Shown: one piece after another, positions 28,101-43,307 of the stretch
Position numbering within the stretch: the stretch's first letter is position 1
How the letters are laid out: each line of letters opens with the position of its first letter
NCBI GenBank assembly: GCA_963855995.1
Contig: OY979730.1
Coordinates: 9,649,300 to 9,713,299 of the forward strand
Length of the DNA: 64,000 bases
Direction: 5' to 3'
Origin: Muricea muricata
Taxonomy: Eukaryota; Cnidaria; Anthozoa; Malacalcyonacea; Plexauridae
Translations under genes and position numbers: made by a program
The notes under the pieces: generated by a model
The model's database searches: none
What the model saw: only the letters and a program-made list of their open reading frames with translations
What the model was told of the DNA's origin: nothing

Positions 28101-30192
28101 GAATTCCTATAGAATCGTAAAGGAATTCCTATTTAATCCTGAAAGAATTCATATAGCATTTTTTATCGGATTTTCGGACTTTTTCAATAGGAATTCCTAA
28201 ACGAACTTCCATAGAATCCTAAAGGAATTCGTATAGAATCCCAAAGAATTCTTGCAGAATCCTAGAAGAATTCCTATAGAATCCTAAAGGAATCCCAAAG
28301 GAATTCCTACAGAATTCTAAATGAATTTTCATGGAGTAAAAACGAATTCAAAATGCTACAATGAGAATTGTAGCTAAAGCAAGACAAAAGATAGTTTAAG
28401 TTAAGACATTTTAAATTAAAACCTTACAACTATTACAAATACAAAATGCTATTTTGGTAATAAATATATATGCTACATAAAATGCCTAATAAATAAATAA
28501 AAACACAAAACAATAGTAACCTTGAAAAAGGTTATCAGGATTGAAGGAAATTATTGAATATTATTGCATTGGCGAATCAAAGCTTGTAAAGAGTTTGATT
28601 ATGACTAAAAAGTTGTCAACATGTCAAATAAACAATCTAGTAAGTATCTTTACTGTTTTTGGAGTTACTATTGTATTGTATTTTTTAAAGATACATGCTC
28701 AGTTCTTAATCATAACATTTACATTACTTATTGCAGTTTCTGTCCCGACACTTTTTGCTGCTTACAACACTTGACAATATTGTTTATCTTAGTCGTCATT
28801 AAGTTTCTCACTTCTTTAGGAGTACTTCCAAACTTCTTTGAGACATAATCTAAACAAATAAAGTGAAAACTTAGACATATTTTATATATCTGGTATATAT
28901 AACCTCAGTACCTTACAGTTTAATATAATTGATGCCAGATTCTGTATACTTACTACAAAAACTATCAACTTTCTCTGCATCAAGTTGCGGCTTTGCTTCA
29001 AGTTGCTTGTGTGCATTTGACTGTCGGCCTGTTACAGAATGAGTGCAAAGTACTTCTCTAGACCAAACCATTGGTAACACTGCATACAATTAATATCTGC
29101 ACCCCTCGGGTTGAGGACATTGAAATTCTTCGGGGGTTAGCAAAATTTTAAGGATGATATAGGGGTATGAAATTTTGGTAGCGGAATTCTTTAGGGTATA
29201 CAAAAATTGGGTTTCTTCAGGGGAATGGAAAATGCCAGGACCTCAACCCAGGGGGTACGGATATTAAATGCAATAGCCCAACAACAAACAGGATGAAATT
29301 GTGTGTAAGCCAAATTTGTAATTATATGTCTTGTTAGGAAACCAAATATAGTAAGTTGAAGGACACTAAAAAAGGCAAGGATTAACTTCTCATTCTTATT
29401 AAATGCATAATCTGTGTGGCCATAGACTGGAAACTTGATAAATTGTGTACTTTGGGCACGAACAGGTACCTCGACTGGGATATTCATTGTTCATAAAGTC
29501 CAATGGCAATAGGAATTTTTACAGGAGAAATTAGTCCTATAGGAATTCCTACAGACAAAAAGATTCTATAGGAATTCTTAAAGGAAAAATATTTTCCTTT
29601 AGGAATTCCTATCCAAAGAAATAAATCCTTTAGGAATTCTAACAGGAATATCTAGCTCCTTTAGGAATTCTTAAAGGAATAGACAGGTCCTATAGGAATT
29701 CCTGTAAGAACCCAAATTTCCTAAACGATTTCGTTTAGGATCCTATAGGAATTTTTCGTAAGGGTATATATATATATATATATATATATATATATATATA
29801 TATATATATATATATATATATATATATATATATATATATATATATATACATATTTGTTTCACATTAACACTTGTTATTAATTAAGCCCATCCAAACAGCT
29901 ATCCCTGGCTTTAATAATTTTCCAGGTCCAACGAAAAATAACCGATACGGCATACAGAATGCCGAGACCAGCAAAAGTTCCCGAAAAACTCTACACTATC
30001 ATGTTAAAATGTTGGGCAGCCTCCCCCGAAGAACGACCCACATTCGAAACTCTAACATGGCAATTGAAAGACTTTTTCCAAGATGACAACAAGATTTTTG
30101 GGACTTTGCCGGTAACGTATCGTACTCAAGCATTTTTAACGACTATAACGACTTCTTCATTATATATACAATATTTTTTAGGTAAGAGCTAG
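4172..30192 (+). CDS. Src-family tyrosine kinase, gene B (SH3-SH2-kinase)
   Basis: Exons 4172-4506 (N-terminal signal and SH3), 20192-20483 (SH2), 24019-24702 and 29926-30111 or 30192 (kinase). The start MGNC with KKK fits N-myristoylation, palmitoylation and a basic patch. Exon 1 ends on a split codon joining EAE to D-WFYG. Reading without splicing hits a stop at once, confirming the donor at 4507. Kinase keeps [12 protein letters not shown] and WTAPEA. Oddities relative to gene D: SH3 has DWC for DWW and SNH for SNY; the glycine loop is GAGNFS, losing the third glycine; DFGLSR is DFGLRR; the SH2 exon has one extra codon before its donor; and about 60 bp carrying the tail tyrosine and old splice donor are deleted. 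The last exon can end at a stop at 30190-30192 (525 residues in total) or splice at 30112 in phase 0 to the mini-exon array. Either a decaying or a specialised copy. Confidence 0.8.
4960..7240 (-). pseudogene. Degenerate non-LTR (LINE) retrotransposon
   Basis: Minus-strand fragments in the correct order. A late endonuclease piece at 7037-7234 has SDHSLI. A linker piece at 6629-6844 matches the region between endonuclease and reverse transcriptase. Reverse transcriptase lies at 5759-6133, with GVPQG and a damaged FVYDTN in place of F/YADD. A C-terminal piece at about 5400-5650 resembles the usual LINE tail. Many frameshifts and stops. It sits in intron 1 of gene B in opposite orientation. Outer limits are approximate. 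Confidence 0.75.
5045..5345. repeat. Dispersed repeat shared with 50365-50580
   Basis: Contains AACATAAGAAATCCGACGTT and GTGATTGGTCCAATA, and ends in a CACCTCAGGCTCGGTGATTT hairpin-like segment. Almost the same sequence lies in the HECT gene intron at about 50365-50580, with an internal deletion. Probably a short non-autonomous element. Confidence 0.6.
7732..7878. repeat. Perfect hairpin MITE, 72-bp arms, nested in the IS630-type transposon
   Basis: Arms 7732-7803 and 7807-7878 are exact reverse complements around a 3-nt loop. The ends read CATAGGCGGCCCAA. GTAGAGT occurs directly on both sides and looks like a 7-bp target duplication. A relative with the same ends lies at 63311-63559. Confidence 0.85.
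8031..9734 (+). CDS. Transposon-encoded PB1, zinc-knuckle and UIM-like protein
   Basis: Single-exon ORF. An upstream in-frame ATG at 8007 would add eight residues, but [10 protein letters not shown] at 8031 begins the PB1 fold cleanly. Residues 1-95 look like a PB1 domain: basic [12 protein letters not shown] start and acidic [12 protein letters not shown] (OPCA-like). A Ser/Asp-rich segment and a coiled coil (around [20 protein letters not shown]) follow. Next come a Cys/His cluster ([14 protein letters not shown]), a basic KKRK region, and [15 protein letters not shown], which fits the ubiquitin-interacting-motif pattern. The end is a Gln/Ser/Thr-rich low-complexity tail. It lies within the inverted repeats and faces the transposase. 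Probably an accessory or captured host protein. PB1 usually mediates heterodimerisation in signalling and autophagy proteins; its role here is unknown. Confidence 0.8.
   Translation: MANYQFKVEYSPGKFIKMFRIIDTSTYSFYDLVDDIKKHCPGFTSITAETIRIRFRDDEGDYINLTEEDKLNFEEMLQQATFLEERNMRRIQLRISELDSPCALKQSPADKKRKVKTKHGLVAVGLKPRSLKFTSRDAELANSKEDACPDDKSKVTKSDSSRGDASRDDDSTMSALERYVDNARTKVDLARAKLEQMQHERDETLERIESARAAAGDADVKTCGNCHLRLGHSQKKCTLPKCTDVFSCGLEKRHPGQVNRRRLDQESSKQQKLVSEAEEELKRRTLSFQTVQKSKTKQIENNLVENHKGDYTNGHGILDWNLLRKHTLLIENYCKKHMNGKIPGKQSIKNVLKKATQDYKECGCEKAINRSKKRKGNPAKNALHEHGINFPSASKVSSDSEPEESDDFIPEVDSKPSSDLSRCMPNTAQEEENQIELAIQASLQGKHRGFDPNYFHPNVVNPAAMPMPMFSWPNFDYYNPAHFLPSQLPPYYNQYYGGQAITVTSSSATSSQAKSTSDTATGSQAKSANSTADTSTGMTNVSSEVNLVPEISEEAAAMALMTLHRKN
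10755..11837 (-). CDS. IS630/Tc1-like DDE transposase
   Basis: 360 residues, intact. The N-terminal third is a helix-turn-helix DNA-binding region ([20 protein letters not shown]) followed by a second HTH-like part. The catalytic core shows FFDEAG (first Asp), [10 protein letters not shown] (second Asp) and [16 protein letters not shown] (third acidic residue). It would cut at the terminal inverted repeats and integrate at TA. The start MPLNERGR is the first Met of the frame and lies about 570 bp inside the right terminus. A complete ORF suggests recent mobility. Confidence 0.88.
   Translation of the reverse strand: MPLNERGRTFESGKALSNDLRRSIIDEVVSAGGNIVTGYFPGTYQAVATKFRVARSTVRKVWKNFCDDYVETAMPSGGPNRNRDKLTGEDLELIEALKVERGSVSLSEICEELAALGLHENISASTISRAIKNKMPSGKRYSRKKITHLAKERFTPENMLYTQLFINYVSSKDPYTLKFFDEAGVRIPEVGTRLYGHSPVGERCVEVTRKCPSPNHTLNALTSLYDGVAYFSILDGPTNTAEFLNFFDEVCQSTSPTTERPLLEIGDTVIMDNLSCHHFEGGEILEDIFNEMGIELLYTPVYSPDLNPVEHVFAKVKNALNFDLLPVVHYDIKMAIYEANGLISSSDVHGFYKNTDYLFV
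12468..14783. mobile_element. Non-autonomous DNA transposon with hAT-like termini
   Basis: Ends are CAGGGGCGGATCTAG on the left and the reverse complement of CAGGGGCGGATCCAG on the right, as in many hAT elements. A CTACAGTCAG motif recurs several times inside. No transposase was recognised, only a 77-codon ORF at 13027. A clean 8-bp target duplication was not found, so the class is provisional. Confidence 0.6.
13027..13260 (+). CDS. Unrecognised 77-codon ORF in the hAT-like element
   Basis: Starts [11 protein letters not shown], is charged and helix-forming in the middle ([14 protein letters not shown]) and has a GT close to its end. It could be the first exon of an otherwise lost transposase or captured gene. 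No family recognised; it may be non-coding. Confidence 0.25.
   Translation: MASNAILDRLNCTLNEQVSFFEKAKKLSEIKRLCQETLSADYKAKRGIEREVFVCYLAQLQFPVTQQLRACNHFPVR
15245..15575 (+). repeat. 5' LTR
   Basis: 331 bp. It contains TATATAAA at about 15418, a possible TATA box, and a GTTAGTTAGTTGGTTAGTTA run. The last bases abut the primer-binding site. Confidence 0.88.
15595..16278 (+). pseudogene. Gypsy gag fragment
   Basis: 227 codons. Matches retrotransposon capsid in [18 protein letters not shown] and the helical region after it. The frame changes near residue 160: the expected continuation ([19 protein letters not shown]) is in another frame at about 16080-16270. Gag is therefore frameshifted. A following zinc-knuckle region (around [14 protein letters not shown] at about 16410-16450) is only readable in short pieces. 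Confidence 0.75.
16412..19530 (+). pseudogene. Gypsy pol (protease, RT, RNase H, integrase), internally deleted
   Basis: Open frame 16412-18979 followed by out-of-frame remnants. Protease: [11 protein letters not shown]. Reverse transcriptase: [13 protein letters not shown] and YIDDILVAS. RNase [13 protein letters not shown] and [13 protein letters not shown]. Integrase: [18 protein letters not shown] and [10 protein letters not shown] (first Asp). After SNWIARF a deletion and frameshift remove the stretch that should hold the second Asp and the Glu. The sequence resumes at [12 protein letters not shown] in another frame (18582-19166), then at an [12 protein letters not shown] tail ending near 19530. 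The catalytic integrase triad is incomplete, so this copy cannot move by itself. Confidence 0.88.
19569..19898 (+). repeat. 3' LTR
   Basis: 330 bp, matching the 5' LTR apart from about a dozen substitutions and small indels. Followed by the ATAC duplication. Confidence 0.88.
21481..21492. repeat. Poly-C run
   Basis: Eleven or twelve consecutive C residues. Length uncertain, because such runs are error-prone in assemblies. Confidence 0.6.
21866..21975. repeat. Short direct repeat, about 44-bp unit
   Basis: CATTATGACTCATTTCGTCG appears twice, 44 bp apart, with a third partial TTTCGTCGTA copy after it. Confidence 0.5.
22120..22300. repeat. Hairpin element (GAGGAATTATTAAGGC arms)
   Basis: Nested inverted repeats: AACAATTATTGAATTC outside, GAGGAATTATTAAGGC and GGTTTGTGTTATCTGCC inside, around a CCTTCGGCTTCGG loop. 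The same design occurs at about 41510-41640, so the two are probably one MITE family. Confidence 0.6.
23045..23146. repeat. Hairpin MITE-like element
   Basis: AACAGTTATTCTAC at the left and GTAAAATAACTGTT at the right, with CGTATAAGAGCGATA and TATCAGCTCATATACG inside as imperfect arms. Confidence 0.5.
24717..24780. repeat. Short tandem repeat
   Basis: Three and a half copies of an ATTATAATTATTTTATAA-like unit directly after the gene B kinase exon donor. Confidence 0.6.
24917..26519 (-). mobile_element. Tc1 element with TA target duplication
   Basis: Inverted ends CACCTAGTTAATAATTATTA and the reverse complement of CACCCTGTTAATAATTATTA, flanked by TA (24915-24916, 26520-26521). The flanks continue each other when compared with the corresponding intron of gene A near 2576-2582, which has no insertion. 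It carries one frameshifted transposase. Confidence 0.88.
25280..26259 (-). pseudogene. Tc1-family transposase, one frameshift
   Basis: N-terminal frame 26259-25720 holds two HTH regions ([17 protein letters not shown], then [13 protein letters not shown]) and LFTDES with the first catalytic Asp. The frame then shifts at GGG near 25720-25735. C-terminal frame 25723-25280 starts with MIWAGI and holds [11 protein letters not shown] (second Asp) and [15 protein letters not shown] (third acidic residue), the D-D34-E pattern of Tc1. Otherwise complete, so probably recently inactivated or carrying a sequencing error at the homopolymer-like GGGGG. Confidence 0.88.
26640..27540 (+). pseudogene. Penelope-like retroelement remnant
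   Basis: Between 27150 and 27535 a + frame reads LPKDHKD, then [25 protein letters not shown] and NTEEFLDF, the Penelope-type RT fingers region. After a deletion of the palm and YxDD region it resumes with [11 protein letters not shown] and [11 protein letters not shown], the LDVxV block that precedes the thumb. Upstream at 26722-26759 is a hammerhead-like core on the minus strand. Host intron 3 of gene B. Confidence 0.65.
26722..26759 (-). ncRNA. Hammerhead-ribozyme-like motif (variant core)
   Basis: Minus strand: stem I UUCCA/UGGAA, core CUGAAGA, stem II GCC/GGC, GAAAC, then GUU as cleavage triplet with essentially no stem III loop. One extra A lies between the core and stem II. Minimal forms of this kind occur in Penelope-like elements and act as dimers. 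Orientation is opposite to the RT remnant. Activity uncertain. Confidence 0.45.
27789..27978. repeat. (AT)n microsatellite, about 190 bp
   Basis: Nearly pure AT dinucleotides with two small interruptions. Open frames across it are artefacts. Confidence 0.95.
27979..28335. repeat. GGAATTCC-rich degenerate repeat, cluster 1
   Basis: Irregular tandem copies of AGGAATTCCTATAGAATCCT-like units. A second cluster lies at about 29500-29762, and an (AT)n tract sits at the outer end of each. No coding signal. Confidence 0.75.
28336..29097. other. Intronic sequence with no recognised element
   Basis: AT-rich. The open frames at 28541 and 28621 encode only hydrophobic residues from T-rich DNA and have no support as genes. 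Confidence 0.4.
29098..29262. repeat. MITE-like element (GGGTTGAGG ends)
   Basis: Left GCACCCCTCGGGTTGAGGAC and right GACCTCAACCCAGGGGGTAC are near reverse complements about 120 bp apart. Confidence 0.6.
29500..29762. repeat. GGAATTCC-rich degenerate repeat, cluster 2
   Basis: Copies of TCCTATAGGAATTCCTA-like units, then an (AT)n tract at 29765. Composition mirrors cluster 1. Confidence 0.75.
29765..29848. repeat. (AT)n microsatellite
   Basis: The 3' flank (ATTTGTTTCACATTAACA) and the rest of the intron end match those of kinase C at about 45471, so the (AT)n probably predates the B/C duplication. Confidence 0.95.

Positions 30193-43307: not shown

Follow-up and report, generated by a model that had tools for sequence, protein, structure and literature searches.

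We analysed a window of 64,000 nucleotides (nt) from the anthozoan Muricea muricata (assembly GCA_963855995.1, contig OY979730.1, positions 9,649,300 to 9,713,299 of the forward strand); positions below are counted from its first letter. The window contains a plus-strand cluster of Src-type tyrosine kinase genes, referred to here as A, B, C and D. Gene A is partial in the window (SH2 at 1171-1461, kinase at 1704-2387 and 2691-2852), gene B encodes SH3, SH2 and kinase domains and is relaxed, gene C encodes a kinase only, and gene D is intact (56796-61503). Between the last kinase exon of B and the first of C lies an array of 18 related units (30182-42968). The initial annotation had described this array as about 20 phase-0 mini-exons of 78 or 81 nt. 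Its coordinates, unit lengths and donor count proved right and 18 of the supposed exons are full units, whereas the remaining two are truncated relics (32523..32565, nhmmer E 3.1e-6, and 42552..42605, E 4.6e-7, both on the plus strand).

All 18 units were recovered on the plus strand with a DNA profile. Nine are 81 nt long: units 1 (30182..30262, the most diverged), 3 (35686..35766), 4 (35970..36050), 6 (36676..36756), 9 (37602..37682), 11 (38099..38179), 12 (38488..38568), 15 (39422..39502) and 16 (39742..39822). The other nine measure 78 nt: units 2 (32301..32378), 5 (36381..36458), 7 (36997..37074), 8 (37212..37289), 10 (37881..37958), 13 (38815..38892), 14 (39032..39109), 17 (42189..42266) and 18 (42891..42968). 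Together they amount to 477 codons, and the introns between them are at least 137 nt long. An AG acceptor is present in 18/18 and a GT donor in 17/18, the exception being unit 8, which has TT. As had been claimed from the start, every unit is open in the frame that begins at the exon start (18/18), and none is open in the other two forward frames (30 stops in frame +1, 39 in frame +2). On the minus strand, the three frames are open in 2, 14 and 9 of the 18 units. Each unit encodes 26-27 residues, mostly small or polar and rich in Ser, Thr, Asn and Ala, and no unit contains a methionine codon.

When the profile built from the 18 units was run against the whole window, it returned the same full-length copies and the two shortened fragments, with nothing else above the inclusion threshold. 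No full-length, frame-broken copy has therefore been overlooked. A stringent pattern that required an acceptor TTTTAG or TTATAG, an open stretch of 78 or 81 nt and a donor AG/GTA matched 14 times in 30101-43000 but not once on the minus strand there, nor on either strand in the rest of the window; in 200 first-order Markov sequences it occurred 0.005 times on average, with a maximum of 1.

In line with the initial annotation, the units have the properties of genuine phase-0 exons. On the unit tree, eleven core splice positions changed 3 times, where the rate of the exon would predict 16.9 changes (P 4e-5). The rate of the anchored flanks would predict 57, a figure that ungapped alignment inflates. 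Indels within exons were multiples of three in 4/4 cases, compared with 11/44 in the 100-nt flanks (chance 0.004). Over the whole set, exon columns changed somewhat less often than the flanks (1.54 changes per site, against 2.08 and 2.02). No unit carries a stop, an outcome reached in 0.5, 3.4, 3.4 or 12.5% of neutral simulations from the consensus, depending on base composition and rate, so that the stop test by itself is weak to moderate. Selection on the units thus keeps frame and splice signals, and hardly the amino-acid sequence.

The array grew by tandem duplication of units along with flanking intron. A three-exon block is present in three copies at a spacing of about 0.9 kb (H1, units 7-9; H2, units 10-12; H3, units 13-15), whose exons differ by 3 to 12%. 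Exon and intron divergence were similar in the three block comparisons, at 7/237 vs 28/647, 26/237 vs 68/635 and 29/237 vs 68/677. The near-identity of H1 and H3 could partly reflect the assembly of two haplotypes. A derivation of the unit from Src sequence of the window, exonic or intronic, was rejected: when the array was compared by BLAST with everything outside it in the window, three matches of 178, 71 and 43 nt emerged, the last of them between the tail of B and the 3' flank of D. An inverted repeat (33033-34849), both arms of which encode nearly the same peptide, lies between units 2 and 3.

The kinase exons that flank the array were placed by homology and by their boundaries, all on the plus strand. 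Gene B begins with an exon that encodes SH4 (MGNC), a unique region and SH3 (4172..4506; tblastn with the SH4-SH3 part of database protein P0001, and border sequence), which ends in phase 2 at GA/GTAAGT. Its SH2 exon (20192..20483; tblastn, 79% to the SH2 of P0001) ends in phase 0 at GAA/GTAAGA. Two kinase exons follow, the first with phase 0-0 (24019..24702; phmmer to Src structures, boundaries) and the second (29926..30111; Pfam kinase and sequence) with a putative donor GTAACG at 30112. Gene C consists of a first kinase exon, also of phase 0-0 (43308..43991; phmmer to Lyn and Src, Pfam, and selection analysis), and a second (45541..45705; Pfam and sequence), followed after the residues DDE by a putative donor GTTAGT at 45706. 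The kinase domain of C is Src-type and retains the catalytic motifs (alignment to Lyn; PF07714, E 3.8e-79). A candidate exon with the motif PPPLPPRR, recognised by an open frame and an acceptor, lies at 46346..46411 on the plus strand; this motif, which we take to be SH3-ligand-like, may belong to the last exon of C or to a downstream gene. Gene D shares 81% identity with P0001 across its full length, and among 120 of its 199 matches the best named ones were from Nematostella (59% over 99%) and Dendronephthya (64% over 90%). The first kinase exon starts with ATG in B (24019-24021) and C (43308-43310) and with GTG in A and D. The shared ATG hints that C may derive from B, and a four-taxon likelihood analysis weakly favoured the grouping of B with C.

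The SH3-SH2 intron of B holds further open frames. A retroelement at 15583-19577 has an open frame of 872 codons with pieces of reverse transcriptase, RNase H and integrase (Pfam), and a 367-codon open frame on the minus strand (10758-11858) contains a DDE_3 transposase domain (Pfam). A same-strand frame of 602 codons at 7926-9731, also in an intron of B, shows a weak match to PB1 (E 4e-4) that falls below the Pfam cut-off.

The array had been placed between two kinase domains, and phmmer agrees that these are the Src-type kinases of B and C; the phases of the flanking exon boundaries are compatible, two of them through putative donors. The two are not equally maintained. The kinase of C is clearly constrained, with a ratio of nonsynonymous to synonymous substitution rates (omega) of 0.245 and twice the log-likelihood difference from omega = 1 (2dlnL) of 21.8 in the set of B, C and D; in the set of A, C and D, omega was 0.259 and 2dlnL 17.3. 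The kinase of D is under strong purifying selection as well, whereas constraint on the B branch of the kinase is not significant.

Several features of the flanking exons bear on whether B, the array and C could form one transcript. The end of the SH2 exon of B, the kinase exons of B, all units and the kinase exons of C share phase 0, two of these ends (30112 and 45706) depending on the putative donors. As all boundaries after the SH2 of B are in phase 0, a transcript through B, the array and C would stay in frame. The ancestral tail and stop of B are gone, and 30103-30145 matches the 3' flank of D (61543-61584) at 93%. The last exon of B therefore now extends past the ancestral stop towards unit 1. 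The C-terminal regulatory tyrosine is kept in D and was not found after the kinase of either B or C; because these tails are gone, a product of B, array and C would have kinases that lack the inhibitory tyrosine. Between 30.1 and 43.3 kb, tblastn gave no significant match to SH4, SH3 or SH2, which leaves no significant SH2 or SH3 relic ahead of C, and significant SH4/SH3 matches were restricted to B and D. As kinase C is constrained although no significant SH match lies in the preceding 13 kb, C seems to require upstream coding exons, and the only SH3 and SH2 that could be encoded with it are those of B, shared through splicing.

The reading that we favour, and to which we give an even chance, is that the array represents amplified phase-0 cassette exons that are spliced into a protein ending in kinase C and most likely starting at gene B. 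We infer that the units would be joined to B and C, that their inclusion would vary and that they would serve as a linker. Such a transcript would begin with SH4, SH3 and SH2 of B, include kinase B or not, and then pass through a subset of the 18 units before reaching kinase C. The number of cassettes included would set the length of the linker, up to 477 residues, or 451 without unit 8, and selection would retain splice signals and frame but hardly the linker residues. A more specific version is rather doubtful: one locus would produce a Src protein with two kinases, or two alternative ones, connected by a linker that splicing could tune between 0 and about 450 residues, with neither kinase subject to the tail-tyrosine brake. 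Src-type polypeptides with two or more kinases have at least been predicted elsewhere. The predicted proteins P0121 and P0122 each combine an SH2 with three kinases and P0124 an SH2 with two, and P0123 has three kinases without SH2. Compared by eye, their inter-kinase linkers are short and no repeated cassette segment was noticed. Some of their catalytic motifs are altered, also judged by eye.

A number of results weigh against the favoured reading. The codon-position bias that the initial annotation expected of coding units, and whose absence it had listed among the signs that would speak against them, was not seen: changes by codon position numbered 46/45/34 (26 columns each), with no third-position excess. 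The codon-model omega of the units was 1.60 (2dlnL 3.8 vs 1), or 1.45 without unit 1 (2dlnL 2.4), neither clearly different from 1. Of the tests that had been proposed, that of indel phase shows multiples of three, yet an omega of about 1.5 offers no sign of protein-level constraint. Nine overlapping comparisons were made between recent copies; exons had diverged less than introns in five and more in four, far more so between units 4 and 16 (19.8% in the exon against 6.9% in the intron). A third-position excess, considered as proof of coding, is therefore absent by codon-position counts, omega and recent-copy comparisons alike. Unit 8 lacks a GT donor. The composition is borderline for disorder (charge-hydropathy test, Uversky H 0.443 against a boundary of 0.433), so any disorder of the linker is a tentative assignment. 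On the side of gene B, omega on the kinase branch was 0.96 or 0.53 (2dlnL 0.01 or 2.15), indistinguishable from neutral; the pairwise kinase value for B and D, 0.31, lies under 1 but also covers the branch of D. The SH2 on the B branch has almost only amino-acid changes (omega above 1, 2dlnL 4.5, few sites), the pairwise B-D omega of SH3 is 1.96 over 6 differences, and B can terminate at the stop at 30190 should its putative donor go unused. Protein searches brought up no transcript of the locus. The units had no match at E<=10 among 7996 candidates scored, so that no protein relatives of the units emerged, and a search with the composite protein returned no protein of this locus among the best 120 of 1954 matches, the best covering 43% of the query at 83% identity. 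Given the conservation of splice core and frame, however, the lack of codon bias need not mean here that the units are non-coding. In the central codons (alignment columns 8-12 and 14-16, picked post hoc), third positions changed once, against 19 changes at first and second positions; this low variation would suit a splicing enhancer.

A possible, if somewhat unlikely, alternative is that C forms a gene of its own, driven by a promoter within the region, with the units as 5' exons of a kinase that lacks SH3 and SH2 and has a variable extension at its N terminus, and that B stops at 30190. This would agree with constraint on C and none of significance on the B branch, with a last exon of B that is open to that stop if unspliced, and with the ATG at the start of the first kinase exon of C. 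However, the units provide no methionine codon, no start exon for C was identified (no systematic search for a non-SH4 start exon or promoter was made), the significant SH4/SH3 matches belong to B and D, and pure 5' untranslated exons would have no need to keep frame.

It is less probable still, and in our view unlikely, that the array is a relic of formerly used exons in a decaying duplicated intron where splicing has been lost. The missing codon-position bias, the divergence of recent copies at about the rate of introns, the one broken donor with the two truncated units, and the unconstrained branch of the neighbouring gene B would all be expected of decay, but 18/18 full-length copies in frame, an almost invariant splice core and a constrained kinase C would not.

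Dscam-type clusters are tandem homologous exons that are spliced in a mutually exclusive manner. The tandem homologous exons of nearly constant length found here resemble such clusters, and yet it is very improbable that a single unit is chosen per transcript: unlike in Dscam-type clusters, unit lengths are multiples of three and several units joined together keep the frame, the inter-unit introns reach at least 137 nt, and no docking-type complement common to the units was found by minus-strand BLAST of 150-nt flanks, a limited test that returned only two inverted repeats near units 3 and 17 and two matches of 13-14 nt. We find it scarcely credible that a tandem repeat or mobile element without coding function merely mimics exons here. 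Flanks do duplicate together with exons and the neighbourhood is rich in mobile elements, but the strongest conservation falls on the acceptor and donor, and exons and flanks differ in their indels.

If transcribed and spliced as favoured here, with cassettes from the array joined to kinase C, the array would work architecturally like the PEVK exon array of titin. According to one study, titin PEVK comprises 81-116 small repeated exons per species that code for a spring-like segment, and a large triplication is reported for human PEVK-C (PMC6469411); the PEVK region is called disordered in another, which mentions 28-residue poly-E peptides (PMC9100103). The two arrays share tandem small symmetric exons with their own splice sites and growth by exon-block duplication. 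Unlike PEVK, the array described here is Ser/Thr/Asn/Ala-rich, has 18 exons and belongs to a Src kinase locus instead of a muscle protein. Small optional exons occur in the Src gene itself, as neuronal N1- and N2-Src carry additions of 6 or 17 residues (PMC4509517). The likeness lies in small exons at a Src locus, whose optional use in M. muricata we infer; the difference is that N1- and N2-Src involve one or two exons within SH3, whereas the array has 18 homologous exons outside recognised domains. The open-licence literature searched yielded no description of a Src gene with an array of this kind, and the combination of kinase and cassette array was absent from that literature and from the protein matches listed.

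If the units are spliced as proposed, the locus would encode a signalling enzyme whose reach is set by splicing, which would bring the principle of the titin spring into a Src kinase. The dual-kinase version, if true, would represent a kinase of adjustable reach built through exon-block amplification. The units would also be a clear-cut natural example of exons on which selection acts for splicing and frame and not for amino acids, and such exons would help in tests of linker evolution and of the ways in which gene finding based on omega can miss real exons.

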